DNA of 64,000 nucleotides from Paramacrobiotus metropolitanus (lineage: Eukaryota > Tardigrada > Eutardigrada > Parachela > Macrobiotidae), in assembly GCF_019649055.1 (NCBI RefSeq), contig NW_026570365.1:186001-250000 (forward strand), read 5' to 3'. Shown piece after piece: positions 26,072 through 49,132 of the stretch. A model generated the notes under the pieces. The model searched no databases, was not told the origin of the DNA, and saw only the letters and a program-made list of their open reading frames with translations. The stretch's first letter is position 1. Every line of letters begins with the position of its first letter. The position numbers and the translations under genes are program-made.

Positions 26072-26612
26072 ACCTTTAGACTTGAATTGAGTTGAGAAGT
26101 GACCTTTTGAGTTGAGACAAAGGAAAAGTGACCTTTGATCGAATTGAGCTTAAAAGTGACCTTTAACTTGAATTGAGCGGGAAAGCGACCTTTTAACAGA
26201 AATTGAGTCAGAAAGCAACCTTTTGAGTTGAACTGAGTCGGAAAGTGACCTTTGAGACCAGAACAGGACTTTTTACCTGAAAAGTGACCTTTACTAAAAA
26301 GTTGGAATTGTCCTAATTGACTTATTTAAGTGACCTTTGTGATCTGAAACTGACGAAAGGTGACCTTTATCGAAGTGAAATTGAAGTGAATAGTGATACA
26401 GCGATATCAGCAGCTGTAGGATTTCATTTGCTAAACGTGTTTCAAACTGTAAAAACGGTTTCGAAGTTTTGTCCGAAAGTGACCTTTTAGGGCAAACCTC
26501 TCGAACTTTTTACCGAAAAAGTGACCTTTAAACGGGACTTGGTCGAAATCTTTCAGTCGAAAAGTGACCTTTAATAAGGACTTAGAAAAATTTCGGAGGT
26601 ACAGAGTGACCT
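26072..26612 (+). promoter_or_regulatory. Cluster of GTGACCTTT motifs in the leader
   Basis: I count 12 exact TGACCT hexamers, mostly as GTGACCTTT, plus two one-base variants (GCGACCTTT, GCAACCTTT). All have the same orientation, within about 540 bp just upstream of the Gag start and separated by 15-110 bp. The complement is AAAGGTCAC, which contains the nuclear-receptor half-site AGGTCA. No protein is encoded here. A regulatory or binding role is inference. Confidence 0.6.
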
Positions 26613-26691
26613 CTAGGATAATTGAATAAACCATACAATAACGTGTGTGTGTGAGAACAATTGACAGGAGCGTCCAAGTTATCCGATCAAC

Positions 26692-29600
26692 ATGGACAAA
26701 GACAAAGAAGAACCGATATCCAACAGTAGTCAGGGAAGCAAAAGCTCCCGCAGCTCACAGCAAAGCGCACCGAACCCGTACAAAAAGGACTTGCACACAT
26801 ACTCACGTCCAGTTGGACATGAGCGGAATACTCGAGCGCCCAAGGCATTCGAGAAAAAGGATTCACGAGGCTCTGATAGCACTTATCAGAAGGCGCTCGA
26901 GGCGGTCGCCAATCAGGAAAGCTCCAGTGACGACCAGAAGCACACCCCCGCATCCATGGCGGGAGGTGATCCGATGAACCAGATAAAGGTCACCGGGGAG
27001 GAAAAGCCCACAGAAAGGGGAGCGGAACCGGTTGGAGCATCACAGTTGGATGCTACCACCAGCAGAACGAATGAGCAGGATAAAAATGTAAATCTGGCTC
27101 AAGTGGAAGCTCAAGTGGAAGATGGAAACACAAAGGTCACCGAAGAGGACTTGGCGGAACTGGGACTGGATGACCTTTCACTAAACGATAAGACTGTCGG
27201 TGATGACCTTTGGGCAACTCCAATGGTCTCGGATGAATCGAATGAATCATACTTCACGGATGATGAAGCGACGATGAACATGTCCTTCCAAACTGCGATG
27301 AAGGAAGCTGACCGCGCTGAAGGGATGACACGATTCAAGGACATACCAGAGCACCTCATTGAACGGACACAAACTGGAAAGGTCATCAATGTACGACCGC
27401 CATCACCGAACAGCCCCACGTCAACTTTGAGGAGACGTGTCAGCGAATTGGAAAACGAATTGGAAGTTAACGAACGACAGGCGGACAAGCGGAAACAGGA
27501 ATACCGAGAAAGACTGACCACACTCGAAACCCGCCTCTTCGACCTGGAGCAGCAACAGGGTGACCTTCAAAGTGCCGCAGATGGTTGGAAAGTGAAATAT
27601 GAAAGACAGAAGGAACTGGCCGATGAATATTTGAAAATGGCAGATGACAGAGAAATGGAAGGTCATCTTGCAGTTAGTGACCTTAATGAGAGCATGTCAG
27701 AAGAATCAGCCGAAAGGTCACGGCACTTAGCCGAATTGAAGGATGAATGTGACTCACTGAAACTTAAGGTCACCGAAGCGGAAGCCAAGCGAGATGAATA
27801 CGCGGCCAAACTCGTCGACGCTACTCAACGATTGTTGACAAACACCAATGAGGTGTTTAAGCTGAGAAACGAATTGAAGTTACGGGACGAGAACATCGGA
27901 ACCCTTCAAAAAGAATCACAGGATCATCAGAGGAGAGCCGACGACGCTGTCAAAGTGGCTAAGGACCTGAGGGAGCTTACAGCCACTGAAGGTGTGCGGT
28001 TGAAGAACGAAATTAAGCAGGTGATGGAAGAGAACAAGTCGTTGAAAGAAGATGTTCAAAAGGTCACCGAAGAGAATACCGAGTTGAAAAAGACTGCTAA
28101 GACAATTGCCGAGCAAGGCATGAGGTGGGAACACGAGACACACCTCCTGGATGAAAAGGTCACGGTACTTGAATTGAAAGATAAGGAGTGGCAACAATCA
28201 GTCCACCAGAAGACGCAGGAGATTATCAAGCTCAACACGGAGCTGATTGATATGACCCAAACGGTGATGACAAGAGAAGATGAGGTCACCCAGACGAAAA
28301 ACCAACTGAAAGCAGCAGTCGAGGAATACACGAAGCTGGAAAGGGATGTGACCCAGTTGGCGGAACACATTAAAAAGGTGGAGAATGACACTGAAAAGGT
28401 CATTCAGGAGAAGACTTTCCAACTCCACCAACATATGTTAAAGGTCAAGGAGGAGAATCAGAACTTGAAAACGGAGAAAGAGGAAGTCCAGTTGAAAGTC
28501 CGTCGCCTTGAGGATGAGAATAAGGCGCTTGTTATGTCTAATAAGCACAAAGATGAACAGCTTCTGCAATATGGAGTCAGGACTTCAACAGTGGAGTCGC
28601 CCCCGCCCAGTTATAGCAAGGCGCACGAAACGGGCACGGGCAAAAGTTTCCACTTCGAAATGCCACTACGAACCGGTACTGGCAAAGGAAGTGTCAAAAA
28701 CGAAAGAAATGGCGAAAAGGTCATCGACGATAAAGAGCCGCCGTCGGAAAGTTACCCGCATATGGGTCGAGGTGACCCTTCACAGTTTCCCCCGCACATG
28801 GAAACAAATGTGTTCATTGATGAAGGACGACGGGACAGACCCCCCAGCCGGCAGGAGCGTCCAAGGAAATCCCGTTATGGAAAAGCGAAACGAAATCAAA
28901 GCGATGATGGAAGTAGTGAAGAAGACGATGACCAGAGAGCAGAAAATACAGCGGTGCAACTGACAAAAGCACTCAACTCGATGGCCAGGAAAACACCACT
29001 CATGACCTTTGACGGCAGTCGTGACACAGTGAGTGGGTGGACACGATTGGTGAAAGAAACCCAAAGGACTTATCAGTTGACAGACGACCAAGTCATGATT
29101 GAGATAGCCAGTGCAGTGAAAGGTCCTGCAAAAACATGGTTTGAAGGAGAAAAGGACATCGCAGCAGAAGATGGAACCGAATTTTCAATAACTGAATGGA
29201 TGGAGAAATTCAAAGATGAATATGGCGATAGAGACGAAGAAGTCTTAGGCTTACGTGAGGCCTACGCGAGGAAATTTGAACTCGGAAAGGAATCGCTTGA
29301 CCAGTATTATCAGGCGATAATGCGCTTCAAAGCGAAGAGAATTATCACCGAAAAGCAAGCAGTCGGCTTCCTAATTGAAGGATGTAGAGGGGATAACGAA
29401 CTCTACAAGGCATTGCGTATACAGAAGTGCAAGACGCCAACGGACGTGAAGGACTTCTTCCGACATTGGGCAACGGGAGAGGAAAAGTATAAGGCGCCGA
29501 AAGGTCAACGTAATCAGGAATACGTGACCATCCGCCAAGGCCAAGTTGAAAACGTGCCGCAACAGAGAATGGCAGCTGCGCCAGTCCAGCAGCCGGTGGA

Positions 29601-29844
29601 ATACCGCAGGGAGGCTCCGGTGCAAGAGGTCACCAAAGAAGTGACCTTTATCGACAGTCAGACGGGACAGCCACTCACGTACGCAATGGTAGCTGCGATA
29701 CAGGCGGCGGCTCAAGTGAGACCGATACCTCAGAATGTGGCCCCACCGGCACCACAGAATGTGGCCCCTTTGAACACTGGGTTACCACAACAAGGAATGG
29801 GTAACGGAAACTTTGGCGGAAACGGATACGGAAATGGAAATTGA
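26692..29844 (+). CDS. gag: Gag polyprotein with long coiled coil, 1050 residues
   Basis: The structural protein of the element. Residues 1-245 are polar and low complexity. About 246-625 is a continuous heptad-rich coiled coil (many LE/KE/EE repeats, few prolines). About 750-935 is a retrotransposon Gag domain: the MTFDGS, SGWTRLVKE, PAKTWFEG, EWMEKFKDEYGD and LDQYYQAI segments fit the capsid region of Ty3/Gypsy Gag. The C-terminus is rich in Pro, Gln, Gly and Asn. The start ATG at 26692 is the first in the frame. The frame ends at a TGA (29842-29844) and stays open directly after it for 139 codons that hold the zinc knuckle. A coiled coil of about 380 residues before the capsid domain is unusual for Gag. 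Confidence 0.88.
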   Translation: MDKDKEEPISNSSQGSKSSRSSQQSAPNPYKKDLHTYSRPVGHERNTRAPKAFEKKDSRGSDSTYQKALEAVANQESSSDDQKHTPASMAGGDPMNQIKVTGEEKPTERGAEPVGASQLDATTSRTNEQDKNVNLAQVEAQVEDGNTKVTEEDLAELGLDDLSLNDKTVGDDLWATPMVSDESNESYFTDDEATMNMSFQTAMKEADRAEGMTRFKDIPEHLIERTQTGKVINVRPPSPNSPTSTLRRRVSELENELEVNERQADKRKQEYRERLTTLETRLFDLEQQQGDLQSAADGWKVKYERQKELADEYLKMADDREMEGHLAVSDLNESMSEESAERSRHLAELKDECDSLKLKVTEAEAKRDEYAAKLVDATQRLLTNTNEVFKLRNELKLRDENIGTLQKESQDHQRRADDAVKVAKDLRELTATEGVRLKNEIKQVMEENKSLKEDVQKVTEENTELKKTAKTIAEQGMRWEHETHLLDEKVTVLELKDKEWQQSVHQKTQEIIKLNTELIDMTQTVMTREDEVTQTKNQLKAAVEEYTKLERDVTQLAEHIKKVENDTEKVIQEKTFQLHQHMLKVKEENQNLKTEKEEVQLKVRRLEDENKALVMSNKHKDEQLLQYGVRTSTVESPPPSYSKAHETGTGKSFHFEMPLRTGTGKGSVKNERNGEKVIDDKEPPSESYPHMGRGDPSQFPPHMETNVFIDEGRRDRPPSRQERPRKSRYGKAKRNQSDDGSSEEDDDQRAENTAVQLTKALNSMARKTPLMTFDGSRDTVSGWTRLVKETQRTYQLTDDQVMIEIASAVKGPAKTWFEGEKDIAAEDGTEFSITEWMEKFKDEYGDRDEEVLGLREAYARKFELGKESLDQYYQAIMRFKAKRIITEKQAVGFLIEGCRGDNELYKALRIQKCKTPTDVKDFFRHWATGEEKYKAPKGQRNQEYVTIRQGQVENVPQQRMAAAPVQQPVEYRREAPVQEVTKEVTFIDSQTGQPLTYAMVAAIQAAAQVRPIPQNVAPPAPQNVAPLNTGLPQQGMGNGNFGGNGYGNGN

Positions 29845-30264
29845 ATGGAGGTCAGGGAACTTCCAGAATCAAGGTCAAGGTCAAGGGAACTTCAGAGGAA
29901 TCAACAGCAAAACCAAGGGTCACGAACTGAGTTTAAGTTCCAGATGATTGATGGATGGGTGGCGAACAATGTGCAGATGTGCCAGTACTGTATGTATGGC
30001 AACCACCAGACTCAGGGATGTAAATTCGCCAACACACCACCGGAACAGAACCCAAACCTGTTTGCCTTCAACGAGTGGCAACGACTGCGCGAGCTCGGTG
30101 GTTGGCGCCAAGCGGTCGCAGAAATGGATATGACCTGGATCAGCGCGGCGGCGGCTTCAGAGGAAGGAACAGAGGCTATGGCCGCGGAAATTACAGAGGC
30201 GGTGGAAATGGAGGCGGAAACTACCAACAGGGTGGTGGCCAGCCAAACGGAGGCGGCCCGGTGA
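29845..30264 (+). CDS. Gag nucleocapsid fragment with CCHC zinc knuckle
   Basis: In the same frame as Gag, directly after its TGA stop, this 139-codon stretch contains a perfect CX2CX4HX4C knuckle (CQYC, then H and C, about 29974-30015), the RNA-binding motif of retroelement nucleocapsids. Two readings are possible: UGA readthrough making a longer Gag, or a disabling mutation. The Gly/Asn-rich composition before the stop continues better in another frame for about 60 bases, which suggests small indels rather than programmed readthrough. Confidence 0.7.
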   Translation: MEVRELPESRSRSRELQRNQQQNQGSRTEFKFQMIDGWVANNVQMCQYCMYGNHQTQGCKFANTPPEQNPNLFAFNEWQRLRELGGWRQAVAEMDMTWISAAAASEEGTEAMAAEITEAVEMEAETTNRVVASQTEAAR

Positions 30265-30341
30265 ATGATCAACAGCAGGGAAATGTGCAGGGCGCGCAAC
30301 AAGGAGGGGCGCCGGTTCAGGGAAACGGGCAAGATCAGTAG
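30075..30341 (+). CDS. RGG-rich Gag tail in a shifted frame
   Basis: From about 30138 this frame reads a dense Gly/Arg/Asn/Gln tract with repeated RGG, RGN and GGG, ending at TAG 30339-30341. Such RGG boxes bind RNA and commonly follow zinc knuckles in Gag. The frame differs from the zinc-knuckle frame, so a frame change between about 30110 and 30140 is needed for the two to be one protein. It begins at GTG, so it is not an independent start. Confidence 0.5.
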   Translation: MATTARARWLAPSGRRNGYDLDQRGGGFRGRNRGYGRGNYRGGGNGGGNYQQGGGQPNGGGPVNDQQQGNVQGAQQGGAPVQGNGQDQ

Positions 30342-30441
30342 GCACCGGTGAGCCTACTGATCGACCCGACCCTAAACCACCGGATAAAAGGGAAAGGTCA
30401 CCACTGCAGAATGGTACTGCAGTGAATGTGACCACTGCGAC

Positions 30442-30678
30442 GGCTATATGGATGCCGTCAGCGAAAAAGCAAAGTGGACCGGCTATATGGATGCCGCAAC
30501 CACAAGAAACGGCTAGATGGATGCCGTCACAGCAAAGAGAAACGGCTATATGGATGCCGTCATCGCAAAAAGGCGGTGGAAACGTCCAAGTGGATAAAAG
30601 GTCACCGCAGAATGGTACTGCGAGTGGAAACGCGCAACGGGACCAAAGGTCACCGCAGAATGGTACTGCGAGTGGAAA
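30442..30678 (+). repeat. Short in-frame peptide repeats (AIWMP and QNGTASGN)
   Basis: GGCTATATGGATGCCG occurs at 30442, 30481, 30511 (one change) and 30544, spaced 39, 30 and 33 bp. All spacings are multiples of three, so in one frame they read TAIWMPS-type repeats. A second unit starting GTCACCGCAGAATGG is at 30601 and 30649, 48 bp apart. The preserved phase points to selection on protein at some past time. Confidence 0.6.
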
Positions 30679-31691
30679 TTGTCGACGGTAGCGCGACACT
30701 GCAAGAAGTGCAGCAAAATGAAAGGTCACCGTATTGCAGCGAAAAAGTGTTAGCTGAACGCCGTGCATTACGTAATGCCAAGATTCAACAAGCTCTGTTA
30801 AACCAAAAGAAACCACAAACTGATACCGCAGAAGAAGTGGAAATGCACCACGAATGGTTTCGGAAACAGATAAATGACAAATCGAAAGACCAAAATTTAC
30901 CACCGCAGAACGATACTGCGCAAGAGGAAAATGAACAGCACGCAAAATCCCGAAAAATTTTGGCAGAAAACGACAAGGCGAATGAGCCAAGGTGCGATTG
31001 TTACGGGGAACCAAAGCCAAAGTTTTGGAATTGTTCAGAAGACGAAGAAGAGAAGCGAATAAGGCAAGAATGGATTAAGCAGAATATCACTGTCATTAGT
31101 AAAGATGAAAGGTCACCTTCTGTTGGAAAAGTCCAAGTTAAAGGTCAAGGAGCGAGTGCGAATGCGAAAGGTCACGGCGACAGCGTCGTGTTAAAAGGTC
31201 AAGAAACAGACTTGACACTGCGAACAGCGCAGCAAAAGAATGGCGAATTGGCACAACAGAACTCCGATGACTCACTTGTAGATGCAATAACGCTGCAACG
31301 GAAGGAGAAGTGGCAAAAAGTGGCCTACAGACCGAATGGCAATCACGGGATGTGGATACCTGTGACGCCGAAAGCAAAGCAGAAAGCGAGAATGTCACAA
31401 GAGGACTACTGGGACATGCAACAGTTGCGAACGCAATGTGAAAGAAAGCGACTGGAAGAGTTGGTTACCGGGAAACCAGCGCAAAGGTCATCGAACCCAG
31501 TCCCAGTATTCAATCCAGAGGAATATAAGAAGACATTCGCTGACTGGAATCATTCACGTAATGCTCCACCACAGGATAAACCGCCGAATTATGGAGAAAA
31601 AGTCCCCATACAAAAGCTGACAGGTGGCGGATTTGTCATGAAGCGCAACGAAAGGTCACAGGACTTAGCCCAAAGGTCACAGGACAAATGA
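30474..31691 (+). CDS. Hydrophilic linker ORF between Gag and protease
   Basis: A 405-codon frame (GTG start, so probably an internal segment) ending at 31689-31691. The first 70 codons read the repeats above out of their natural frame, so the meaningful part begins near 30690. It is rich in Lys, Glu and Gln, without recognised domains except a small Cys cluster (CDCYGEPKPKFWNC, 30994-31035). AGGTCA motifs occur every 30-400 bp and are read as ERSP, KGH or KGQ depending on frame. Probably part of the Gag-Pol precursor. No function is assigned. Confidence 0.45.
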   Translation: MDRLYGCRNHKKRLDGCRHSKEKRLYGCRHRKKAVETSKWIKGHRRMVLRVETRNGTKGHRRMVLRVEIVDGSATLQEVQQNERSPYCSEKVLAERRALRNAKIQQALLNQKKPQTDTAEEVEMHHEWFRKQINDKSKDQNLPPQNDTAQEENEQHAKSRKILAENDKANEPRCDCYGEPKPKFWNCSEDEEEKRIRQEWIKQNITVISKDERSPSVGKVQVKGQGASANAKGHGDSVVLKGQETDLTLRTAQQKNGELAQQNSDDSLVDAITLQRKEKWQKVAYRPNGNHGMWIPVTPKAKQKARMSQEDYWDMQQLRTQCERKRLEELVTGKPAQRSSNPVPVFNPEEYKKTFADWNHSRNAPPQDKPPNYGEKVPIQKLTGGGFVMKRNERSQDLAQRSQDK

Positions 31692-31794
31692 GATAGCGCA
31701 AACGCAACAGAGTAGCGCAGTTGAAAGGTCACGGGACTTATCACAAGCACTGCAAAAGGATGCCAATGACAAGTCACCAGCCCGAACAGACGGG

Positions 31795-32481
31795 ATGTCT
31801 TCGCAAATTGACCCAACGAAAACGAACAATGAAGTATCTGCAAAAGTGATGCAATGGATGACCGAAAAGGGATATGACATGGTTACATATGAAAGGTCAC
31901 CAGATGAGATGAAAGATAGCGAAGAAGACGAACTGAAGCGAGCGGACCAAATAACAAGTGAAGTCATTGAGAAGTTGAGAGATAAACGAAATGAAAATCG
32001 CAAAGAGGAACTGATCCATCAAACGATAAATGAAGTGACTAAAGGTCACATGGAGAGCACAAAAGCAAATGAGCAAGTGCAGAACGTGGAAAAGGTCATC
32101 AGTGATAAAATGGCTACAGAGAAGCGAACAAATAAAGAAAAGCCGCGAAAATATTACGACGTTCGGACTAATGTTCCACATAGGATTGATAAGCTGAGCG
32201 AGATACTGAAAGGTCACAGCACTCCAGCAAAAGGACAAGTGCTTCCCGATATGGACCCGGGACCAGTATCGCTTATTCCTGTGAAATGTAAGATTCATAC
32301 TTTGAAGATTCAAAATGGAAAACTGCCCAAGAGAATTGAAGCGTACACACACGAAGTGAAAGTGGGAGACATAAAGGTCAACGCAATGTTGGACACCGGC
32401 GCTGAGACGTCGCTGATCAGCAAACCGTTTTGCGAGAAGAATGGACTCATATGCTCCCATTGCCACCAGACAGATTGGTGA
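31795..32481 (+). CDS. Aspartic protease of the retrotransposon (N-terminal part)
   Basis: The frame begins at ATG 31795. The first 150 residues are polar. The retropepsin motif LDTGAETSLIS follows, with catalytic Asp at residue 200 (32392-32394). This homodimeric protease would process Gag-Pol. The frame is lost about 60 bases later and ends at 32481. The rest of the protease fold continues in the frame of 32430-32648, so a single-base indel near 32450 separates them. The order Gag, protease, RT is as expected for Ty3/Gypsy. Confidence 0.8.
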   Translation: MSSQIDPTKTNNEVSAKVMQWMTEKGYDMVTYERSPDEMKDSEEDELKRADQITSEVIEKLRDKRNENRKEELIHQTINEVTKGHMESTKANEQVQNVEKVISDKMATEKRTNKEKPRKYYDVRTNVPHRIDKLSEILKGHSTPAKGQVLPDMDPGPVSLIPVKCKIHTLKIQNGKLPKRIEAYTHEVKVGDIKVNAMLDTGAETSLISKPFCEKNGLICSHCHQTDW

Positions 32482-32648
32482 AAATAAATGGAATTAGCGG
32501 AACGTCAGGATTCCTGGTGACGCACTACTGTGTAGCGCCAGTGACCTTAAGGAAAAAGACTAGCGAACATTCATTCTACGTCCGACCGAAGTGTGACGAC
32601 GTACAAGTGTTATTGGATTTGACTTCTTGGAAAAGAAATTCGTACTAA
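32430..32648 (+). CDS. Protease C-terminal part, shifted frame
   Basis: It reads a hydrophobic beta-rich stretch (VKINGISGTSGFLV, then VQVLLDL) typical of the flap-to-C-terminal half of retropepsins, where a conserved hydrophobic LLG/LLD segment precedes the end. Another apparent frame change near 32618 follows, since a more plausible tail continues in a third frame until about 32770. Described as a broken gene. Confidence 0.5.
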   Translation: MREEWTHMLPLPPDRLVKINGISGTSGFLVTHYCVAPVTLRKKTSEHSFYVRPKCDDVQVLLDLTSWKRNSY

Positions 32649-32769
32649 TGGATAACGAAGGTGAAGAAGAGAAAGAAGACGACCCAAAACCAGTCGCCAA
32701 AGTTCAAGTCGGAAAGGTCACCGAACTTGTAAAACAGACGGGAAATGCTCAAATGGTTAATAAACGCTA

Positions 32770-33318
32770 ATCCCAGTACCAGAGGCACCGGGAAACGAAA
32801 AGAAAAAGATGACGCGAAAAGAATTGTCACCATTTGAGCAGTTGCAAATGATTCAGCAGGAGATCGAAAAGACATTAAATCGGACCTTGCTGGCACAGAA
32901 GGGAGAGAAAGGTCATCCCAGTACCAGAGGCACCGGGAATGACAAAAGTGCAGCAGGAAGAATTATCCCAGTACCAGAGGCACTGGAAACGAAAATGAAA
33001 ATGGAAAAGTCGGATGTTATCCCAGTACCAGAGGCACTGGGAAAGGAAGACGAAAGGTCACCAGCAACTGAGAACTTGGAACGAGAGCGTAATTCGAACC
33101 TTTTCGAACCACGATCTGCTACCCAAAATGAAAGGCTACCAGATAAAGCCAAAGAGGAAGTAACAGAACGTGACTCTCAAAGGTCACCAACGATTGAAAG
33201 GTCACCAACGATTGAAGAGATAATTGCCACACAGAAAGAAGCGGCAGTTGCAGCGAAACAATCTCTTGTGCCAGACATGGAGTGGGTAAGCCTATCCCAG
33301 TACCAGAGGCACTGGAAA
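32770..33318 (+). repeat. Five dispersed copies of a hairpin-forming repeat
   Basis: ATCCCAGTACCAGAGGCAC begins at 32770, 32915, 32965, 33019 and 33294. CCCAGT can pair with the following ACTGGG over a nine-base loop (perfect in the copy at 33019, one mismatch in the others). Copies fall in three different reading frames. Where read in the common frame they give IPVPEAL. Either indels separated an old peptide repeat, or the nucleotide hairpin is itself the unit. Confidence 0.65.
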
Positions 33319-33321
33319 TAA
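32809..33321 (+). CDS. Polar ORF with IPVPEAL repeats
   Basis: 170 codons from an ATG at 32809. Composition is dominated by Lys, Glu, Arg and Ser, with two IPVPEAL units and several ERSP tetrapeptides that come from the AGGTCA motif. No domain is recognised. It lies between protease and RT, is probably a fragment of the polyprotein, and overlaps the next frame by 40 bases. Confidence 0.35.
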   Translation: MTRKELSPFEQLQMIQQEIEKTLNRTLLAQKGEKGHPSTRGTGNDKSAAGRIIPVPEALETKMKMEKSDVIPVPEALGKEDERSPATENLERERNSNLFEPRSATQNERLPDKAKEEVTERDSQRSPTIERSPTIEEIIATQKEAAVAAKQSLVPDMEWVSLSQYQRHWK

Positions 33322-34688
33322 AGACGGCTAAAGTGGGGAAGGATAAAAAGAGTGAAAGGTTACGAGTTTTGAAACGAATAGTTGAAGAGGAACAGATGTT
33401 TACAAGCGAAATCCGCGACAAGGCACTCGAACAATTGAAAGGTCACCGAACAGAAAAAGAACCAGAGGTCATTGAAATATCCTCTGAGGATAAAAGCGTG
33501 ACTCCAATCGAATGTGAGGAAGATACCACAGTACAGGAACAGGTTAAACCTGAAGCGAGTCAAAGGACATTAACTCCAGAAGAACGAGCCGGGAGTTGTC
33601 ACCACGGTTACTTTGAGGATCCGTGCAGAGTGCAACCACAATGGGAATGCGCGGAATGTTGTGAAAATGCCTCTCAAGATGACCCTTCAGAATGGCCAAG
33701 ATGTAATGCCGCATTAGCAGACCTTAAAGGTCATGCCCAAAAGAAAGCGAAAAGCATCATGCGGACAAACGAAATGTGGAAACCACACATCGAACGGTAT
33801 CATTGGAATAGATATCGAACGTGGTTGTCATGTGTGGAAAGTTTTATAATTGGAAGAGGCAGATGGCTAAACCATTGGTTGCAACGTGTCGAGAAAGGAA
33901 TCCAAGATCCTCTCGATCCGGTAGCAACAGAAAGGAGATTTGAACGAGAGATAGAAGAAATGACCGAGGAAGGAGAAATGTGGGAAGAAGCGAGAGTTGA
34001 CCTTTTCTGGGACTTCCGTGTGAACCACATGTATAAAGGTGAAGGGAGAACGATCATTTTCCCGGCAGGACTTGGAACACCTGTCTACGAATCACTTGAA
34101 GTGTACTACAACGCGTTAAAAGAGGGAAACGAAAAAGCATTCGAGAAATACTGGAAGAAATTCGAGGAAGAAATCCCCAAATTTGACGTAAAAGAGATGC
34201 GAGAATTACAGGTTACCCGGAAAAGAAGGTTACCGGGATTAGTGCAAAAGAAAAAGGTGACCTTTGCACCAGATCCAGATGGAGTGGACTACCCCGAACG
34301 AGGCGGTGATACATGGTGCATGTATGAAACGATTCCAAATGATGAATGGGTCACCGAAGAGCTGATGGCAAACTGCATCTTTGTTGGGCCTAAACGACCT
34401 AAAGGTTACGAAACAGTTCAACAGGATGAAGCCGATAAAGGGACTGTCAAAGAAGCAGAGAAAGAGGAACCAATTAAAGAGATAGCCGAAGGACAATCGA
34501 ATGAAACAGAAGAAAGTTCAAAGTCAGCTTTCGATATTGCGCAGATGTTAACGGACAGAGGTGAAATGTGGAAAAGGTTCAAAGAGGAAGTTGAAAGGAT
34601 ATCGAACGAACAGCAAAACCCAGTAACTGAGGCAAAAACGGGGAAAGGTCACTCGATAACGGTGAGGAATGCCCGCCGGTCGAGTTGA
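33282..34688 (+). CDS. Unrecognised Cys/Trp-rich pol insertion, 468 codons
   Basis: A long open frame (GTG start; read as a polyprotein segment) between protease and RT, where Ty3/Gypsy elements normally have only a short spacer. Residues 105-145 hold a cluster of His and Cys (CHHGYFEDPC, CAECC, RCNAA) that could bind zinc. A Trp-rich, predicted helical region follows (WKPHIERYHWNRYRTWL, then FWDFRVNHMY) and then a basic segment (VTRKRRLPGLVQKKK). The tail is acidic. I recognise no family. Its intactness over 1.4 kb, while flanking frames are broken, argues that it was functional in the recent ancestor. Confidence 0.6.
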   Translation: MGKPIPVPEALEIKTAKVGKDKKSERLRVLKRIVEEEQMFTSEIRDKALEQLKGHRTEKEPEVIEISSEDKSVTPIECEEDTTVQEQVKPEASQRTLTPEERAGSCHHGYFEDPCRVQPQWECAECCENASQDDPSEWPRCNAALADLKGHAQKKAKSIMRTNEMWKPHIERYHWNRYRTWLSCVESFIIGRGRWLNHWLQRVEKGIQDPLDPVATERRFEREIEEMTEEGEMWEEARVDLFWDFRVNHMYKGEGRTIIFPAGLGTPVYESLEVYYNALKEGNEKAFEKYWKKFEEEIPKFDVKEMRELQVTRKRRLPGLVQKKKVTFAPDPDGVDYPERGGDTWCMYETIPNDEWVTEELMANCIFVGPKRPKGYETVQQDEADKGTVKEAEKEEPIKEIAEGQSNETEESSKSAFDIAQMLTDRGEMWKRFKEEVERISNEQQNPVTEAKTGKGHSITVRNARRSS

Positions 34689-35416: not shown

Positions 35417-35613
35417 AGAAAAATCAGCTTCTCGGCTACGTTGAGCCGTATGAACATATGGAGAATGTAAAGGTCAACGCAGGGACAGTAAAGAACGTAC
35501 TCGAAGACCCTGAGGTGGATGAGACAACGAAAGCTGAACTTAAAAGATAATCGAAAACCTGAAATTGGGACCTGACCTTACCCAGAGCAGAAAAACGACG
35601 TGTACAACGCGTT

Positions 35614-38888: not shown

Positions 38889-38933
38889 CTCAGTCACACA
38901 GCAAACCGGTACGAACCACCTCTGCTACCCGAA

Positions 38934-39582: not shown

Positions 39583-39597
39583 AGGTAAGCACAGTTA

Positions 39598-40405: not shown

Positions 40406-40610
40406 ACCGAAAGTGTCGTGAACTTTACCGAATTCATATGCGAGTTGAAGATGAACACGCATGGTATGGAAAGCTGATTAGCCTGGAAGCTGTCATCAAA
40501 CCATGTCATATCGCACTGAAGGAAAAGACAAAACTGATCGAAAAAGAGCGCAGGGGAATACGCGATAAAAGTTGCGTCGATGTGGCAATACCATCCGTCG
40601 CTAAACGGTA

Positions 40611-41291
40611 GACCATGGCTTCGACTATCGAAAAAAAGATCCTTCGATATCTCAAGGTGTTCCCAGAAACAAGACAGACACCGACTACCAGCGTCAGGAC
40701 CATCTAAACCCAGAGCTGAAAAAGATGCGGTTGATGGGAAATGACGGACGAGGACCTTTTGGCCACAAAGCAGAGGATTGATGCCGTATTAACGGAACGA
40801 GCAGAAAAGGTCACGGGCCAGCTCGGTTGCAGGATCAGGACGTGGACGTACTAGCTCCGGTCACAGAACCATCAGTGGCACCACGAGTGGAAAAAGAGTG
40901 AGATCACCGACGACAAGCCCAAAAGAAACTGATAAGAAAGGGCAGCGAACAAAGACCACAGAAAGCAAAGCAACGCCAGCTGAGCCGGCAAGCCACAGGC
41001 CCCGATTCAGTGGGTAGAAAGAGTGTACCACCCACGCCGAAAGGAACGAAGGTCAGATTCGATTCGAAGTGTAGAAGTTCACGGCCAAATACACTGGGAA
41101 GATCATAAAGAACGAAAGGTCACTGCACGGAATAGTCGATAAGAAAACGAACAAAGAGATCGACTCGTATAATCCCCCTCGCGGATAGGTCAGTCAAGGA
41201 TGCCATTGGGAAAGAGAGTCAAAACGATAGTCAATGAGGCGCTACAGTTTATTCCTCAGAAGAACGTCATAACCCAAGAGTTATCGTTCAG
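40611..41291. other. Degraded coding-like stretch
   Basis: No frame longer than about 60 codons, but the base composition, the density of AGGTCA motifs (40806, 41048, 41114) and Ser/Thr/Arg-rich short frames resemble the flanking ORFs. Probably a part of the post-pol coding region where indels are dense. Confidence 0.35.
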
Positions 41292-41558
41292 ATGATGAAG
41301 CATGTGGTAGCTAAAGTTGCAACCGAAGAAGATGCATGGATCCGTATCAAAGTGGGCACAGATGATGACCACTTGGCATATCTACACAACGGACGGCAAC
41401 TGTTGATCAAAGAGAACTCGCTCAAAACCGACGGCGGATCAGATCCGAAGAAACGATCGTCAGATGATTATGAGTCGGTCGAGGATATACAGATGCGACA
41501 AGCAGAAAGGTCACCCTCAGACTTTTCGCTGACAATGGAGAAAACTGGGAAACCATAA
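41292..41558 (+). CDS. Small ORF in the post-pol region
   Basis: 88 codons from ATG 41292. It starts with a compact mixed hydrophobic/polar segment (KHVVAKVATEEDAWIRIKVG) and ends with an ERSPSDF phrase produced by the AGGTCA motif. No family is recognised. Confidence 0.3.
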   Translation: MMKHVVAKVATEEDAWIRIKVGTDDDHLAYLHNGRQLLIKENSLKTDGGSDPKKRSSDDYESVEDIQMRQAERSPSDFSLTMEKTGKP

Positions 41559-42095
41559 CGCAGTGATAGTGGACCCAATAACAGGAGGCCCGGTCCCGCC
41601 CCATGGGATGTATCGAAGAGCGCCCGAAACGCAGATCAGGCAGCTATTGACCAGCTGGGATCTGATACCTGAAAGCGACCGAAAAGATGCCGTGGTTCAA
41701 GCGGCCTCATCAGCATGATGCGGCATGGCGGACGGAGATCGATGGAGCACATTTCCGACTGACAAGACGAATGGAAGACGGGTCGTACAAAACAGGTATT
41801 TTACGACGCTAAGAAGAACCCTACCATAACTGCAGATAGTCGACCCAATAACAGGAGACCCGGTCCCATATGCCCCATGGGATGTATCAGAAGAGCGCCC
41901 GAAATGCGAATCAGGCAGCCATTGACCAGTTATGGATCTGATACCTGAAAGTGACCGAAAAGATGCCGTGGTTCAAGAGCACACTGATCAGCATGATGCG
42001 GCATCGAGCGGAGATCGATGGAGCACATTTCCGACTCACAAGACGAATGGAAGACGGATGTACAAAACGGTATTTTACGACGCTAAGAAGAACCT
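41552..42095 (+). repeat. 271-bp tandem duplication
   Basis: Copy 1 is 41552-41822 and copy 2 is 41823-42095. Both start ACCATAAC, contain ACCCAATAACAGGAG, ATGGGATGTATC and GAGCACATTTCCGACT, and end CTAAGAAGAACC. They differ by scattered substitutions and several indels, so the duplication is older than the LTR pair suggests for the insertion itself. Frames differ between the copies. Confidence 0.8.
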
Positions 42096-42471
42096 TTGTG
42101 GGAGGTCGCCTCACAGGATCTCCGAAAAGACAAGACACTTGAAATTCATCCCCGGCACAAGAAGGCGGAGCCGGAGAGACGGAAGAGGCGCAGGGCACGT
42201 CGGCAAATCTAACTGAAACAGGAGGGGCCAGACGTTCGCTACAAAGAGTATTAGAGATTGCCCAAGGAATTCATGAGCACCTTCAGTGTGATGAACCAAA
42301 CTGTGGCCATTGTAATCCACCTGGTGACGACGAACCAGAGACGGAAGACGATAACCCACCTGAGGAAGAAGGATCAGACGAAGAAATGGCCGACAAGCAT
42401 AAAAAGCCCTCAAAAGCAAGCCCTCAAAGTCAAACCGAGAAAAGCGCCCAGATTGGAAGAGGCCATGAACC

Positions 42472-43005
42472 GTGACAAGGTTAAGAAAGGCGATTTCTCA
42501 AGAAACGACGGAGAAGAAGATAAGAAGAAACGACAGGAGGAAGAAGATAAGAAGAAGAAGAGCGGTGACGAAAGATAGCACAAGCACCGGGAAGAAGAAA
42601 AGAGATGAACCAGCGTCTCATGACGTTGAGATATTGGACGAGTCAGTCGGCGAAGTTGAAGAAAGGTCATCGACACCTACGAAGTCAAAGAAAGTTATTC
42701 AATCGGCTACAGCAGAGCCATCAAAACTCAAAGGAAAGGTCATAGCGGTGAAACAAGCTGTCCCCATTGTCATTTCCGCATCCACGCCAAAGGAGCGCAA
42801 GGACAAACAGATTCGCGAAAAAGCGAAACGGGAGACGTCGCGTGAATCGGAGGCATCGGAAGTGAGCCTTCCAAGCACTTCGACGGTTAGTGCGAGGTCA
42901 CACACGGACTCGAAAACGACACGATCAAGAACCACTGAACCAAGAAGAAGCGGAAGTCTGGATAAAGGGAAAAAAGCAAAGAGCGAACCCGTTAAGGACG
43001 GTTAA
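42472..43005 (+). CDS. Lys/Glu/Ser-rich ORF, post-pol
   Basis: 177 codons. The first part is extremely basic and acidic in alternation (DRRKKIRRRRA, KKKRDEP), then Ser-rich (SRESEASEVSLPSTSTVSARSH). Low complexity, probably disordered; no domain. The start is not ATG. A related acidic/basic stretch precedes it in frame 42258-42578. Confidence 0.35.
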   Translation: MTRLRKAISQETTEKKIRRNDRRKKIRRRRAVTKDSTSTGKKKRDEPASHDVEILDESVGEVEERSSTPTKSKKVIQSATAEPSKLKGKVIAVKQAVPIVISASTPKERKDKQIREKAKRETSRESEASEVSLPSTSTVSARSHTDSKTTRSRTTEPRRSGSLDKGKKAKSEPVKDG

Positions 43006-44267
43006 TTACACTGAACCAGATGGAGAGGAACTGGACTTCACTCAGACGAAGAATTTGATGGTCCCGATGATGATAATTTGAACACGGTCGATGAAGTAAT
43101 CAGAGCGTATAACGGAGCTGAAAAGAATTTCACACGAATAAGAACAGCATCGGTGACATCCAAATTTCAGCAGGCCTGAAGACGATTTGAAGAAACAACA
43201 TCGTAGCTTCACTAAACAAAAGTTCGACGTCGTTGGAATTCGCGCGGAACGCAGGAAAACTTATACAGAAGCACCGAGAGTTTTCGTATGAGGCCGTTGT
43301 TCAGACCAGCCAGTTCGGATAAAGCGCTGACAACCCGAATGAAGCGGTCCCAATGCGAGTAGAAAGGGCAATCGCGGGAATGACAAGCCCATTAGGGTCA
43401 ACAGATCCACCGGACAATACATCAACGCGCAGTTTGGAACGACGGAAATGGAATGATAAAGAGATCGACACGGCAGCCGAGCGCGTATTGCCAAGTTGAT
43501 TAAACAGAACGTCCTTGCCACGACAAACGCACATAAAGCGACAACGGATCCGATACACGAGAGTCGGTCTAATACCACCGGAAAGACAGATCCACTGTAA
43601 TATGTCCGACAGTCAGGACATGGAAAAGGTCACAGTTTCATCGAAGACAAAAGGCCCAATGGATTCGGAATCGGAAAGCGACGACACGCTACTATAACGG
43701 CTCCTTCTGGACTTACGACAGAAAAGATGAACAGTCGAAAGGTCCGAAGACATCTGAAACTACCGCAGAAGTTCAACCGAAAGGTCATGAAGCTTCAGAC
43801 AAACGGGAGAAGAAAAGGTCATGCTCCCGATGGATAAGGCAGCAGCAGAAGCTGAAGCGGATTCGGCGCGACAGGTGTTTCTAAATCACTGTTCATACCA
43901 TTAAAGGAGGTCTTTGAGAAGGAACGATCGAAATCGGTCGGCGATCTAAAAGGTCAAGAGACTTTGCCGCAAGAGGAAAAAGAAGACAGTTGAACAAAAT
44001 CGGCGGGGTCATCATCAGGATCACTGGCAAAGCTGAGGATCGACGAGAACAGCGACAGCTGACCCAACGGACTCGACATCCTCCCAGAAAAAATAGCGGT
44101 ACACCGGCAAAGGAGGCTACAGATTACATGTTAGGACCGGCATTGGACGTGAATAATCGTACATGGAACGAAGTCCAGAACGCTCCCAGATCATCCGAGA
44201 AAAAGATGCTTGGTACAGATCTGAAGAGACAAGTGGCAATAAATTCAACGGAAGGTCGTCACTTAAC
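43006..44267. other. Degraded coding-like stretch of the element
   Basis: Short frames only (up to 105 codons), none with a recognised domain. AGGTCA motifs at 43624, 43782, 43813 and 43947. The texture is the same as in the neighbouring ORFs. Confidence 0.3.
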
Positions 44268-44650
44268 ATGACTGAACGAGTCTTGAAACGAGCTTATAAG
44301 GAAGGAAAGTTGGGATGTAAATATAACAAGGACAACAAAGTCGTCTACTACCTTCCGAAACAGGGCACGGAACGAACGCCCAGACTGGAAAATGGAACTG
44401 GAGGCCTGGAAGATAGCCATCACAGATGGGAGCTCTGGACGCCATTGGCGTGCTCAATGGCGCGTCATGGCATGACCTTTCGAACTTCATGGCCGTCAAT
44501 GATACGATTGGAGATTTGAATATTGAAAGCGATAAAGAGTGGATTAAGAATGCCGTTGAAGCCTTGATCGCGGACGAAGTGCTTCATATTAAGCCAGATG
44601 GCCGAATCGATTTCAAGCCGTATAAACCATCGACGAAAGAATCCGAGTGA
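44268..44650 (+). pseudogene. Broken ORF with compact globular segment
   Basis: From ATG 44268 (MTERVLKRAYKEGKLG) the frame runs to 44519. The frame of 44426-44650 then carries SDKEWIKNAVEALIADEVLHIKP, a helix-rich amphipathic segment that ends at TGA 44648-44650. The two parts look like one small globular domain separated by a frame change near 44430. No family is recognised. The stop is followed by about 340 bp of non-coding sequence before the next ORF. Confidence 0.35.
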
Positions 44651-44956
44651 ACTAATCGAGTGTAATATGCAGCGAGTAATGAACCCTGCATATTACAGAA
44701 AAAAGCATAAAACAGTTTAAAACGAAAGAAAAAGCGTTACGAAAGGTCAACTGAAAGCAGTACTAGGACTAATAGAAAAGGTCACAGCAGTAGTCAGAAA
44801 GTGCTGATAACGTGAGAAAGCGTCACCACGTTTACAGTGATAGAAAAGGCAGCAGGAGCTAGGAAAAGTCTCAGCCAGCAACGGAATAGGCGTAAAATGA
44901 TAGAAAAGCCTTGATATGGATAGGAATGGAAAGGATTAACGTGGAAGTTAATATGA

Positions 44957-44977
44957 CGGATTGTTTTATAATTACAG
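44957..44977 (+). promoter_or_regulatory. Second splice-acceptor-like site
   Basis: TTGTTTTATAATTACAG ends at 44977, 14 bases before ATG 44992, with a GGATTAAC branch-point-like phrase about 40 bases upstream. It resembles the site at 39581 in position relative to an ORF start. Inference from pattern only. Confidence 0.35.
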
Positions 44978-44991
44978 ATTGAAGCGGAAAA

Positions 44992-45765
44992 ATGGCACAG
45001 AAAGGTCAAGCCACTCCTAAACGTACGGGAACGGCGGCAGACATCGATCAGTTTACGGGCTATAATCCGAAATGTCCCGACTGCTTAAGGAACAACAAAA
45101 AGGTTGATAAGAAATTCCCTTGCTACACTTGTATTCACAAGCTTGAAGACCACATGCCGCTCACGCTTGTTGGGATCATGGAAGCGAAACGAGGGAACTT
45201 GGACGTTTTTCGAAATCTCATAAGCGCAAGAAATTACGGCAGCATCCCAGTGGAAGAGCGAATGCTACTCGAGGATCGCTACCGGGAAGCGATCCGGAAC
45301 AACGAACCTGGTTGGGATGACACCTTGGAGCCGTTGAAGTGTCCACAGACAGACGCGTATCGGAAGGAATTCGAAGAGGACCAGGAGAAGATGCGAGTTC
45401 AGCAAATGGAAGACGAACTCCGCGCGAAAATTAATGCGGAAAATAAGAGAGCAAGTGAACAGGCTGCACGAGAGGGGCTGCCCAGCACATCGAGTTTAGT
45501 TGCACCTACGGGCACGGCCAGCCTTAATGAAGACGAAATGCAACTCGTACGACAGTCGCTTATCATTCAAATTGAAACGTTAACGAAGGATCCAGCAGCT
45601 ATGTCAGACGAGGTATTCAAAATGTTGTTGCGGGAGAAGAAACGACTTCAAGACGGGTTCGCGCCGGCACCCTACATAAAGAAGGAAGTCGAAAGACGTA
45701 TGGATGACCTACGTAAATCTCACCGAACCGAAAGCGATGTGCTGCAAGCACTCAAGAAGTTTTAA
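44992..45765 (+). CDS. Unrecognised post-pol protein with Cys4-like module, 257 residues
   Basis: Starts at ATG 44992. Residues 23-45 hold CPDC, then CYTC about 15 residues later, a possible Cys4 zinc-binding module. This is followed by a helical region (MEAKRGNLDVFRNLISARNYG, EERMLLEDRYREAIRNN) and a Gln/Glu/Lys-rich coiled segment to about residue 160. The C-terminal half has LVRQSLIIQIETLTKDP and EVFKMLLREKKRL, which look like amphipathic helices. No family is recognised. It is one of the longest clean frames in the post-pol region, so probably a real element protein. Confidence 0.6.
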   Translation: MAQKGQATPKRTGTAADIDQFTGYNPKCPDCLRNNKKVDKKFPCYTCIHKLEDHMPLTLVGIMEAKRGNLDVFRNLISARNYGSIPVEERMLLEDRYREAIRNNEPGWDDTLEPLKCPQTDAYRKEFEEDQEKMRVQQMEDELRAKINAENKRASEQAAREGLPSTSSLVAPTGTASLNEDEMQLVRQSLIIQIETLTKDPAAMSDEVFKMLLREKKRLQDGFAPAPYIKKEVERRMDDLRKSHRTESDVLQALKKF

Positions 45766-46309
45766 ACAGGACGAAGGTTTCATTCGACCTCGATCGCCTC
45801 CGCATAGAGAAAGTCACGCGGACATTCTCGTGAAAGGACACGTGACTACACGTGACTACCACAGTGAAAGGTCACGCGAACGCTCCCGCGACAGGGATTA
45901 CCGTGGCGGAAGAGGATGGGTACGCCACGGCGATGAAGTAACAGAGATGAGCATTCAGAGGAAGATCGACACAACGAAGTTATTGGCAGCGACCAGAGAA
46001 CGTGAAGAAAAACGGCGTGCGGAGACATTCCGTACAGAACCTGAAAAGGAAGGACATCAGGTGCCGACGGAAGTTGCTTTCCGTAATCGTAACGTCAGGA
46101 TGTCAACACCCGAAAGGTCATGGGATAAAAGACGCGAACATACGCGAAATCGAACGCCTGACCCACGCGATAAAAGATGGCAACAGAGGCTGCATTCTAC
46201 GCGACCTTTGACTCAGGCGCAAGCAAAAGGTCATCGAGTGCGGAGAGGAAGATTCACCCCAAAATATCAGCGAATGGAGTCAACAGTTCACGTAGTGGAT
46301 CCATCGTGA
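45704..46309 (+). CDS. Arg-rich ORF, possible continuation
   Basis: 201 codons in a different frame, overlapping the previous ORF by 62 bases. Rich in Arg, Asp, Ser and His, with RSRERSRDRDYRGGRGW, an RS/RD-type RNA-binding composition. The useful part begins near 45770. May be the tail of the preceding protein after a frame change, or a separate nucleic-acid-binding protein. Confidence 0.45.
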   Translation: MTYVNLTEPKAMCCKHSRSFKQDEGFIRPRSPPHRESHADILVKGHVTTRDYHSERSRERSRDRDYRGGRGWVRHGDEVTEMSIQRKIDTTKLLAATREREEKRRAETFRTEPEKEGHQVPTEVAFRNRNVRMSTPERSWDKRREHTRNRTPDPRDKRWQQRLHSTRPLTQAQAKGHRVRRGRFTPKYQRMESTVHVVDPS

Positions 46310-47127
46310 GTACCGTACAAGAAGATGACGCGATGGAAGGCACTGGCTCAGTTGTCGAAACCACGTCTCAAGAGAATGTGACTCACCGACGAAATGTAAT
46401 CTTGGATAGTGACCTTCAACCGGCTTCATCGACGAGTAATGAACCGTCGCAGCCAGCATCAGCAGACCGACGCGAACTGGAAGGTCAAGGCGAACCGGAT
46501 AATTGTCGCCAAGGTGATCAGCGATTAAACTCCAGATTTAATAACCGACAACCAGAAAGTATTGACATGGAATACAAGACGACTGATATCGATGAGCAAA
46601 CGGTCGAAATTTGTCGATACTTTGGACTTGAGCCGGATTCGGTTGAAGCCAACAAATTGGCACAATTCTGACAGCTGAGTCAATTCTTACTTGACTCAGG
46701 TTACGCGAAAGAAATTAAAGAGGAGTGGAACAAGGACTTTTCGCCGGTTATTCATCCACCGCGATTCGGTACGGGACTGTTATCTCCTATCAGACAGAAT
46801 GGGCTACACAGCTTAGTGGATTTGAACTTATTGGATGTACCATTGGATACAACTGACCCAATCGGAATGACACAGTTTTATTATCGCGATTATCCTGAAC
46901 GACAGGAATATGTGGCTCAGTTTGTTCTACGCTACGTGAATCCGGCTTTCAAGTTGCTCGCAGCCAGAGCATCAGTAGGACTTCAGGTGGATCCGAAAGA
47001 CTATGCCGCAAAAAGGATGGGGCAAAGGTCTTTTGCCACGACTGGCACATTACAAGACACAGAACCAGCTGGTATCGAATACGATGAGAGACGATATCCC
47101 ACCGTTTTTCCGACCTCACGTCGCTAA
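46177..47127 (+). pseudogene. Post-pol ORF with single in-frame TGA
   Basis: The frame opens at 46177, is closed by TGA 46669-46671, and continues open in the same frame to 47127. After the stop there is a compact segment (FLLDSGYAKEIKEEW, QFYYRDYPERQEYVAQF, NPAFKLLAARASVGL) that looks globular. No family is recognised. A frame change near 47010-47060 leads into the next ORF. Confidence 0.4.
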
Positions 47128-47680
47128 ATTGGGACAACCGTTGGAACACATCAGCATAGCCCATAATGCTCGGAAGGCGCTGAAGAAATGTAAGACACGG
47201 ATGGAAAAGGGCAACTTGACACAGCGCCATGCCTCGCAAGTTGAAGAGAGGATCAATAAGATCAAAGATTCACTAGGAAGTGACTATGTGGAACCGGTAG
47301 ACGGAGTCGAGACTTACATTGATGAATTCTTGGTGAAGAAAAGTGACCGTCGTCCGGAACGTGCTCCTAACCAGATGGGACGACGTGGTATACGGAACCA
47401 GCAACTCCGAGATAATCTCGCTGACGTACAACGGCGACTGGCAGCTGACCCTAATAACCGAAGACTGCGGTTAGAGGAGAACGACGCACGGCACCAACTT
47501 GAGAGAGTTAAGCGAAGCCGCCAAGGGAAAGGTCGTGGCCAGCGCCATGTTGACCCGGTAAAGGTCATGGAAGTTGACTCGACGGAACCAGTTGACCGAA
47601 CTTCCGATCGAAACCAACCGGAAAGCGCTAAGAAACGCCCGCCGAGAGATGGTGAGGGCGATTCAAATGAAATGGAATAG
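47003..47680 (+). CDS. Basic helical ORF at the 3' end of the coding body
   Basis: 225 codons from ATG 47003, ending TAG 47678-47680. The segments ARKALKKCKTRMEKG, LRDNLADVQRRLAADP and ARHQLERVKRSRQGKGRG suggest amphipathic basic helices able to bind nucleic acid. The C-terminus is acidic and Pro/Arg-rich. No family. This is the last substantial ORF before the hairpin array. Confidence 0.5.
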   Translation: MPQKGWGKGLLPRLAHYKTQNQLVSNTMRDDIPPFFRPHVAKLGQPLEHISIAHNARKALKKCKTRMEKGNLTQRHASQVEERINKIKDSLGSDYVEPVDGVETYIDEFLVKKSDRRPERAPNQMGRRGIRNQQLRDNLADVQRRLAADPNNRRLRLEENDARHQLERVKRSRQGKGRGQRHVDPVKVMEVDSTEPVDRTSDRNQPESAKKRPPRDGEGDSNEME

Positions 47681-47779
47681 TGTTGACCTTTAGGATCACA
47701 CTATTGAAAGGACGTCTACGGCATTTTGTCGGTACGTCACAAAAATGAAAAACGGTGTTGTATAAAGGGCGTGATATGT

Positions 47780-47944
47780 GACATGTTAACATTAATTGTA
47801 TTTGTGTATTTGTCGTTTGCAGCATTTATAGCACAGAATTGCCTAAAGAAATCATGTGGAATACTATTGGGGTTGAAATTGATTCGGTCTATAAAGCCGG
47901 CTCCAAGGGAGTTGCTACGGCAGTTAGCCGGCCCTCCTCTCTAA
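47780..47944 (+). CDS. Short ORF with one hydrophobic segment
   Basis: 54 codons from ATG 47780, with a membrane-like stretch LTLIVFVYLSFAAFIA followed by a basic tail. It overlaps the first hairpins of the 3' array. It is the only membrane-like segment I found after integrase, too short for an envelope protein and possibly chance. Confidence 0.2.
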   Translation, partial: DMLTLIVFVYLSFAAFIAQNCLKKSCGILLGLKLIRSIKPAPRELLRQLAGPPL

Positions 47945-48320
47945 GCGACTCAGTGTTATAAATGCACAAGAGAAACAACGGTAATCAAGCCGGATCTCTT
48001 GCATACGAAACGGGGCCACAAGCGGCGAAAAAGAGAAAAGACAACAGGTGGAATATTGATGAGGTTAACTTAATGCGGCAATCAGCCGGCCTCATTAGAG
48101 TTGTTACGGTAAACTATGCCGGCACTCTCTGTAAGCGATTCAGTGTCAAAATTAAAACGAGAAAACTACGGTAACCAAGCCGGATTTCTCGTAGTAATGG
48201 ATGTTAGCCACAAGCGGCGAACAAGAGTAAAAGATTTAAGGTGGAAATTTCATGGGGTAAACTCAATGCGGTAACTAGCCGGCCCCATCAGAGATGCTAC
48301 GGTAAACTTGCCGGCACTCT
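47867..48320 (+). ncRNA. Tandem array of eight nested RNA hairpins
   Basis: Three hairpin types (A, B, C) recur with a period of 189-193 bp in the order A B C A B C A B. Inner stems CGGY/GCCG start at 47885, 47918, 47979, 48076, 48107, 48169, 48269 and 48300. Outer stems differ but pair. A: TTGGGG with CTCCAA, TGATGAGG with CCTCATTA (one G-U pair), ATGGGG with CCCCAT. B: GGAG with CTCC, AGAGT with ACTCT, AGAG with CTCT. C: CAAGAGA with TCTCTTG, ACGAGAAA with TTTCTCGT. Compensatory changes between homologous copies argue for a conserved RNA (or cruciform) fold. Function unknown; packaging, transport or 3'-end recognition are possibilities. Confidence 0.75.
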
Positions 48321-49132
48321 CGCCGCTCGAGGCATACTGAAGTTGGATGTGCGACGGAAAGGTCAAACTGCAAATTTTACCAGGGAGGCAAGCGAAGAAG
48401 TGCTTGAAAGCTGCAGAAAATTGGCTAAGTTCCTCCATGACCTTTAATGGGAGTTTTGACGAGTGGGATGACCTTTGGGATCATCAATTGCCCAATAGAG
48501 TCACCGTATCGGAATTCAAGTCGCATGACCTTTGGGACCATTAACCCAAAACGAGTCGCACATCTCAACGGATCATCTCAACAAAGGATGACCTTTACTA
48601 GGGAGGAAGCGGACTACGCTTGTCTTCAAAGACGTCCCTCCATGACTTTTATTGGATCTCATTTTGAAGTCGTACGAATGATACGCACCATATTCCAAAG
48701 ATTGAAGCAGTATTCCTAAGTCGTACTTGATACGCACCTGATTCTCAAGCGGATTGTGATGAAAAGTCGCATTATGGATGCGCGGCATTGCTCAACAGAG
48801 CGGAATGGGCCAAAGTGCGGAAAACGGTGGACAGGACCTGTGACCTTTACGAGTCAGAAATGGAGGATCCTAGTCTACATTTTGCATTTGGATTAATACT
48901 TTTGTTGATCTGTTTAACTGTTGATCTGTTTTCTTATAGTATTTTTTTATAATTGGATCTCTTTATTCACATCGTATTAAATGGAATTGTGCCTTATGGA
49001 ATTGATGTGATATGATAAATGGATTAAGAGAATTGATGTTTTTGAGCGCACACAGACACCGGCGACCGTCGTCTTCTCGTGGATCCGGGAGTGTGTCCAG
49101 CCTCACAGGAGCTCGGCATCCCCCCAGAGGCA
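48321..49132 (+). other. 3' untranslated region of the element
   Basis: No ORF of note. TGACCT hexamers return here in the same orientation as in the leader (48437, 48468, 48524, 48588, 48840), opposite to most copies in the coding body. The bases directly before the 3' LTR (CCCCCCAGAGGCA) do not form an obvious polypurine tract, which is unexpected for a complete element. Confidence 0.5.

Follow-up and report, generated by a model that had tools for sequence, protein, structure and literature searches.

Known systems and the element under study

Short DNA words that are over-represented on both strands, even inside genes, where they affect the encoded proteins, are familiar as bacterial DNA uptake sequences, and the NR4A response element (NBRE) is normally present singly or in small numbers close to a promoter of the host. 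In the nearest known retroelement system, the gypsy insulator of Drosophila, the 5' untranslated region contains 12 Su(Hw) sites (PMC2374998). Alu repeats carry nuclear-receptor sites (PMC3252374, PMC1785376), and the NBRE, AAAGGTCA, is bound by NR4A as a monomer or homodimer (PMC6912296). In this study, we analyzed a 64,000-nucleotide stretch of the genome of the tardigrade Paramacrobiotus metropolitanus (contig NW_026570365.1, C145:186001-250000; hereafter the window) and searched 169.8 Mb of that genome in 533 contigs. The window contains a 24.7-kb retroelement of the Ty3 type with long terminal repeats (LTRs), spanning 24827-49515 with an interior of 23.9 kb, and the NBRE word occurs in it in 93 exact copies. 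Where retroelements are described as carrying binding sites for proteins, these are usually in the LTRs or the leader, whereas here one 8-base word appears to be selected over about 23 kb, inside genes too and in either orientation. We give a probability of roughly 55% to the reading that the body of the element serves as a series of double-strand DNA sites to which a nuclear receptor binds as a monomer, the most likely candidate being the NR4A orthologue of the host.

Like gypsy, this element is of the Ty3 type and has, behind the 5' LTR, about a dozen leader sites, putatively for one host DNA-binding protein: 12 TGACCT are clustered in 26070-26691, 11 of them as TGACCTTT. Unlike gypsy, it uses another word and has 82 further copies across coding and 3' regions. 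Su(Hw) sites have the core TGCATA, and TGCATA/TATGCA was found 0 times in 25188-26691 and 7 times in the whole element. With the NBRE it shares the identical 8-base sequence and the single half-sites, the difference being that 93 copies are assembled in one mobile element. As with Alu, receptor half-sites are spread by a retroelement; Alu, however, is short and non-coding with one or a few sites, while this array is selected through coding sequence. The likeness to DNA uptake sequences, namely over-representation of AAAGGTCA on both strands and within genes, is an analogy only, because those are chromosome-wide, bacterial and read by an uptake machine, whereas this word is concentrated in an animal retroelement lineage; we know of no DNA uptake process for a retroelement. 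Among the titles and abstract openings of the literature searched, which left subscription papers largely outside, there were Alu, HERV-K and HIV (human immunodeficiency virus) cases with receptor or factor sites and no body-wide site array.

Over-representation of the word and its effect on coding sequence

The first-pass annotation had estimated about 120 AGGTCA or TGACCT hexamers between 26072 and 48845, and the count proved to be 121 (84 + 37), the expectation for the element under an order-2 Markov model being 11.6 + 4.6. The element extends beyond that range at both ends. Elsewhere in the window the hexamers are far fewer, as annotated, although they number 19 (13 + 6) rather than about a dozen. 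The true unit is the 8-mer AAAGGTCA/TGACCTTT, which is present in 64 + 29 = 93 copies in the element versus 0.67 + 0.14 (about 0.8) expected from a background in which hits to the core were masked, and its two orientations are the most over-represented 8-mers of the element. Plus-strand hexamers are preceded by A at position -1 in 93% and at position -2 in 80% of cases. The reversed control word occurs 6 times in the element; in the 39.3 kb outside, it occurs 5 times and AAAGGTCA 3 times. Enrichment over expectation is about 115-fold for the exact word, 9- to 17-fold for variants of the first A, and 0- to 5-fold for changes within GGTC. This profile is sharper than expected from a decaying repeat.

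The same excess is found in coding sequence. When synonymous codons were shuffled 2000 times in 13 open reading frames (ORFs; 13,191 bp), a check that had been named beforehand, the mean was 5.0 copies (standard deviation 2.0, maximum 12) compared with 56 observed. Plus-strand sites in these ORFs occupy all three frames, and the earlier proposal that the word is kept as DNA regardless of frame is supported. Minus-strand sites use two frames, the TGA-reading frame being used in 0 of 10, and this avoidance by the reverse word helps explain the plus bias in the coding parts. In 14 ORFs with 6984 codons (8 from the window and 3 each from the related elements L031 and L033), KVT (20), ERS (20), KGH (18) and KGQ (17) occur more often than any other tripeptide, and all four are AAAGGTCA read in three frames; KGH and KGQ were expected 0.7 and 1.7 times. 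Moreover, 28 of the 35 KGH/KGQ are spelled AAAGGTCA, although GGT makes up 84 of 369 glycine codons. The word overrides synonymous codon choice and marks the amino-acid sequence, and selection on it seems strong enough to determine which tripeptides are most frequent in the proteins of the element.

An excess arising without any selection, from composition, tandem duplication, mutation bias or gene conversion, is very improbable. The element is indeed purine-rich and consists partly of short tandem repeats (26066-26258, 30467-30678 and 33179-33216), but the Markov and codon-preserving controls contradict such an origin, and the flanks of the sites are mostly unrelated. When each of the 93 sites was paired with every other, the flanks agreed at 15 or more of 24 positions in 11 pairs; most sites therefore did not arise from each other by copying. 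Origin from duplication of one long unit was rejected because the flanks mostly differ.

Conservation in sister copies

To define sister copies, we took every place with an exact match to an 18-mer in which the word is included (24 matches at 21 places including the window, hence 20 sister stretches); alignments below 150 bp were dropped from the mismatch and variant comparisons that follow. The mean identity of these stretches to the window is 91.0-94.6%, and they contain 815 sites in 189.7 kb versus 66 for the control word. In the fast-changing gag part, the mismatch is 1.65% in the motif, 15.4% in the 8-base flanks and 12.3% at other bases; in 30.15-38 kb, the respective values are 1.28%, 4.5% and 4.4%. 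Altogether, 789 of 871 site-copies are kept exactly.

Variants were further divided into those shared between copies and those private to one copy, using six aligned stretches from which non-spanning copies and any gapped columns were also removed, leaving 18-21 of 21 sequences (including the window). Shared variants, which were counted without a tree and hence not as separate events, affect 6 of 272 motif columns versus 1170 of 7210 columns elsewhere (odds ratio 0.12, p 1e-13). Private variants affect 23 of 272 motif columns versus 604 of 7210 elsewhere (p 0.91). This test set aside 40 columns in which the word is present in a minority of the copies, with 11 shared and 6 private variants; when all columns that are motif in any copy are included, the values are 17/312 for shared (p 2e-8) and 29/312 for private variants (p 0.53). 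The contrast is also seen at third codon positions (shared, 7/99 vs 730/2116, p 5e-10; private, 10/99 vs 265/2116, p 0.64). In columns outside the listed ORFs, the shortage of shared variants was not significant (1/30 vs 129/799, p 0.07).

The signal thus passed the comparison with sister copies, in which loss of the word at the neutral rate would, according to the first-pass annotation, have refuted it. Because shared variants are rare and private variants occur at a normal rate, selection acts on transposing lineages and not on resident copies: mutations of the word seem to be harmless once a copy has inserted but to be eliminated from the lineages that keep spreading. This indicates that the word is probably needed by the element and not maintained by the host, and it looks like a DNA-level signal. 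The normal rate at which private mutations strike the word is also a further argument against an excess without selection.

The same data bear on the idea, raised in the earlier annotation, that the word is a host silencing target. We regard this as a quite improbable alternative, whether the word serves as a target, as a repressor platform or as the element's own latency device. A precedent is that NR4A2 silences HIV in human microglia by recruiting CoREST to the HIV LTR (PMC9295971). A silencing target, however, would vanish from successful lineages, whereas the word is kept in the spreading lineages and decays, at the background rate, only in resident copies after insertion.

Placement, orientation and spacing of the sites

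The features of the element are as follows (positions in the window).

24827..25187, plus strand: 5' LTR, 361 bp; word absent; CCTG directly before
26070..26691, minus strand: leader cluster, 11 TGACCTTT (12 TGACCT), every one reversed, many 28-46 bp apart
26692..29844, plus strand: ORF in gag position, 1050 amino acids; 14 word copies
29845..35613, plus strand: gag-to-reverse-transcriptase region with several ORFs; 34 word copies
31795-32481, plus strand: protease-like stretch, below the Pfam cut-off, inside the preceding region
35614..37119, plus strand: reverse transcriptase and RNase H; 2 word copies start within, one of which overruns the end
37167..38888, plus strand: integrase and next ORF; 6 word copies
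38889..48350, plus strand: long 3' region with shorter ORFs; 20 word copies
44992..45765, plus strand: 3' ORF with a CxxC...CxxC (zinc-ribbon-like) stretch; putative zinc binding
48351..48845, minus strand: 3' cluster; 6 word copies, 5 reversed
49133..49515, plus strand: 3' LTR, 383 bp; word absent; CCTG directly after

The two LTRs could be aligned with 10 gap openings and share identical blocks of 122 and 214 bp, and the CCTG outside both ends of the element represents a short target-site duplication. The Pfam matches RVT_1, RT_RNaseH, Integrase_H2C2 and rve follow the Ty3/gypsy order of reverse transcriptase, RNase H and integrase, a class assignment made without a tree; the zinc-binding and core domains of integrase were matched in ORF 37167-38243. 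The sites are sparsest in the reverse transcriptase-RNase H part. A similar leader cluster, with at least 7 pairs, was found in another copy of the family at C1:865826-866370; relative to the copy at C1:859181, it lies on the other strand.

The orientation of the copies could suggest a role in RNA, in which reversed leader copies pair with forward body copies so as to fold, dimerize or pack the genomic RNA. All 11 leader copies are reversed and most body copies are forward, as such pairing would have it, but the body and the 3' end hold both orientations, pairing needs no identical word in diverged elements, and the word is an exact protein-binding consensus. We therefore rate an RNA-level role as improbable.

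With regard to spacing, a second AGGTCA within 12 bp was found at 0 of the 93 sites, and among 95 AAAGGTCA spacings below 80 bp (the window element and the diverged elements L029-L033 described below) only one is below 17 bp. Dimeric receptor sites were rejected on these two counts, which together favor binding by a monomer. The earlier suggestion of a monomeric half-site therefore fits the data, and the NBRE of NR4A fits them better than an NR2-type direct repeat. Helical phasing was also rejected, as the vector length at periods of 9.5-11.5 was 0.08-0.13 and the random value is 0.10.

The word in the genome and in diverged elements

In the whole genome, AAAGGTCA occurs 42,562 times versus 15,522 times for the reversed control word, and same-direction pairs of AAAGGTCA 10-40 bp apart number 3880 versus 40 for the control. 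The same pair test with CAAGGTCA gives 20 versus 31 for the control. Six places (L029-L034) were chosen from the first 100 places of the AAAGGTCA pair list, all on contig C1, so that site density was selected for. With this proviso, the five diverged elements L029-L033 contain 171 sites in 44 kb, the control word being found 0 times. Four of them (L029, L030, L032 and L033) could be aligned to the window, with 73-76% identity outside sites and 92-97% in motif columns; no alignment to the window was obtained for L031. Window sites are kept in place in 16 of 19 cases in L030, 20 of 23 in L033 and 1 of 2 in L032.

The sixth place, L034 (C1:2083000-2091999), contains 6 AAAGGTCA, gave no alignment to the element and, by its matches, resembles a host gene with histidine/glycine repeats; hence, not all of the 3880 pairs belong to retroelements. 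As L034 suggests, a KGH repeat is another in-frame source of the word.

Two more elements were picked without regard to the word (2 of 150 scored from 1043 RNase H candidates). In a Ty3 relative on contig C25 (reverse transcriptase identity 73% across 178 residues), three stretches with a total of 4.5 kb contain 0 sites. The word is therefore not a property of every Ty3 element in this genome and, since the A and T content of this relative is similar, it is not forced by base composition, which again argues against an excess without selection. A more distant Ty3-type element on contig C45 (L069, C45:286000-287500) has 2 AAAGGTCA and 4 AGGTCA in 1.5 kb and may bear a sparser form of the array.

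Candidate receptor and proposed role

The genome contains 63 matches to zf-C4, the nuclear-receptor zinc finger, 34 of which were read. Among these, an exon at C45:297502 is of NR4A type: compared with solved structures over 43 residues, it matches NGFI-B (E-value 1e-20) and NR4A1 (E-value 1e-20), followed by RXR (E-value 5e-16). Other zf-C4 matches include domains that we take to be FTZ-F1-, ERR-, RXR- and COUP-TF-like. The form of the site, together with this NR4A-type DNA-binding exon, makes NR4A the most likely identity of the receptor. Capture of a receptor by the element was rejected, as a scan of 20 ORF stretches gave no zf-C4 match and the 63 matches in the genome all lie on contigs other than the window's.

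It is less likely, though the strongest of the alternatives, that the word is read by some other DNA-binding protein, for example another host receptor, a host zinc-finger protein or the 3' protein that the element itself encodes; the word would then serve as a packaging, nuclear-import or anti-silencing platform. The CxxC...CxxC ORF of the window (44992..45765), for which Pfam gave no match, is also present in L031 and L033, where the protein continues into an arginine/serine-rich part, and selection on transposing lineages would fit any protein that serves the element. On the other hand, the word is exactly the NBRE, the sole known DNA-binding domain in the ORF stretches scanned is the integrase zinc finger, and the window's contig is free of zf-C4 matches.

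In the reading that we prefer, an NR4A-like monomer would occupy the sites, above all those of the dense leader and 3' clusters. It may bind first at these clusters, with the body sites then holding the 24 kb open, and occupancy would raise transcription or keep the chromatin of such a large retroelement open against silencing. Copies that lose sites would leave fewer descendants. Several observations weigh against this reading. The word is absent from both LTRs and from the first 880 bp downstream of the 5' LTR, a placement unlike that of most promoter-linked sites. The shortage of shared variants was not significant at first codon positions (3/92 vs 184/2145, p 0.08) or at second codon positions (6/91 vs 127/2150, p 0.82), and L029 keeps 7 of 15 alignable window sites, i.e. 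under half. The AGGTCA core is common to other receptors, and 34 of the 63 zf-C4 matches were read. Finally, since NR4A2 silences HIV, it can repress a retroelement.

A broader and more tentative proposal, to which we give somewhat less than even odds, is that a giant retroelement lineage has converted its entire length, protein-coding parts too, into a densely packed series of one receptor word, most of which each spreading copy has to retain. It would then be a eukaryotic analogue of bacterial uptake sequences, with a DNA code dictating part of the protein sequence and a lineage tied to one host nuclear receptor. The array makes it possible to test how very long retroelements stay transcribed despite silencing, whether a single receptor of the host can become indispensable to a parasite lineage, and to what extent coding sequence yields to a DNA signal.

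Other features of the element and its surroundings

The plus strand of the element is strongly purine-skewed between 26000 and 48000 (AT skew about 0.19-0.40, GC skew about 0.06-0.16). An A-rich, T-poor composition is common to relatives with and without the word. In the window copy, the 9.5 kb located 3' of integrase contain nothing but shorter ORFs; in related elements, the ORFs of this region reach 838 amino acids, with nothing over the Pfam cut-off. Long proteins without a Pfam match are encoded there at L031:3-1718 and L033:2907-4913, the former apparently consisting, by eye, of three repeats of one module.

Outside the element, ORFs 21802-22644, 57647-58654 and 61215-62225 resemble, by eye, what we take to be rhodopsin-type receptors. 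In addition, a 102-bp unit made of two related 51-bp halves is repeated in tandem about 13.5 times in 14099-15473; G+C is 57% in its 2-kb bin, and one frame is open for 385 codons.

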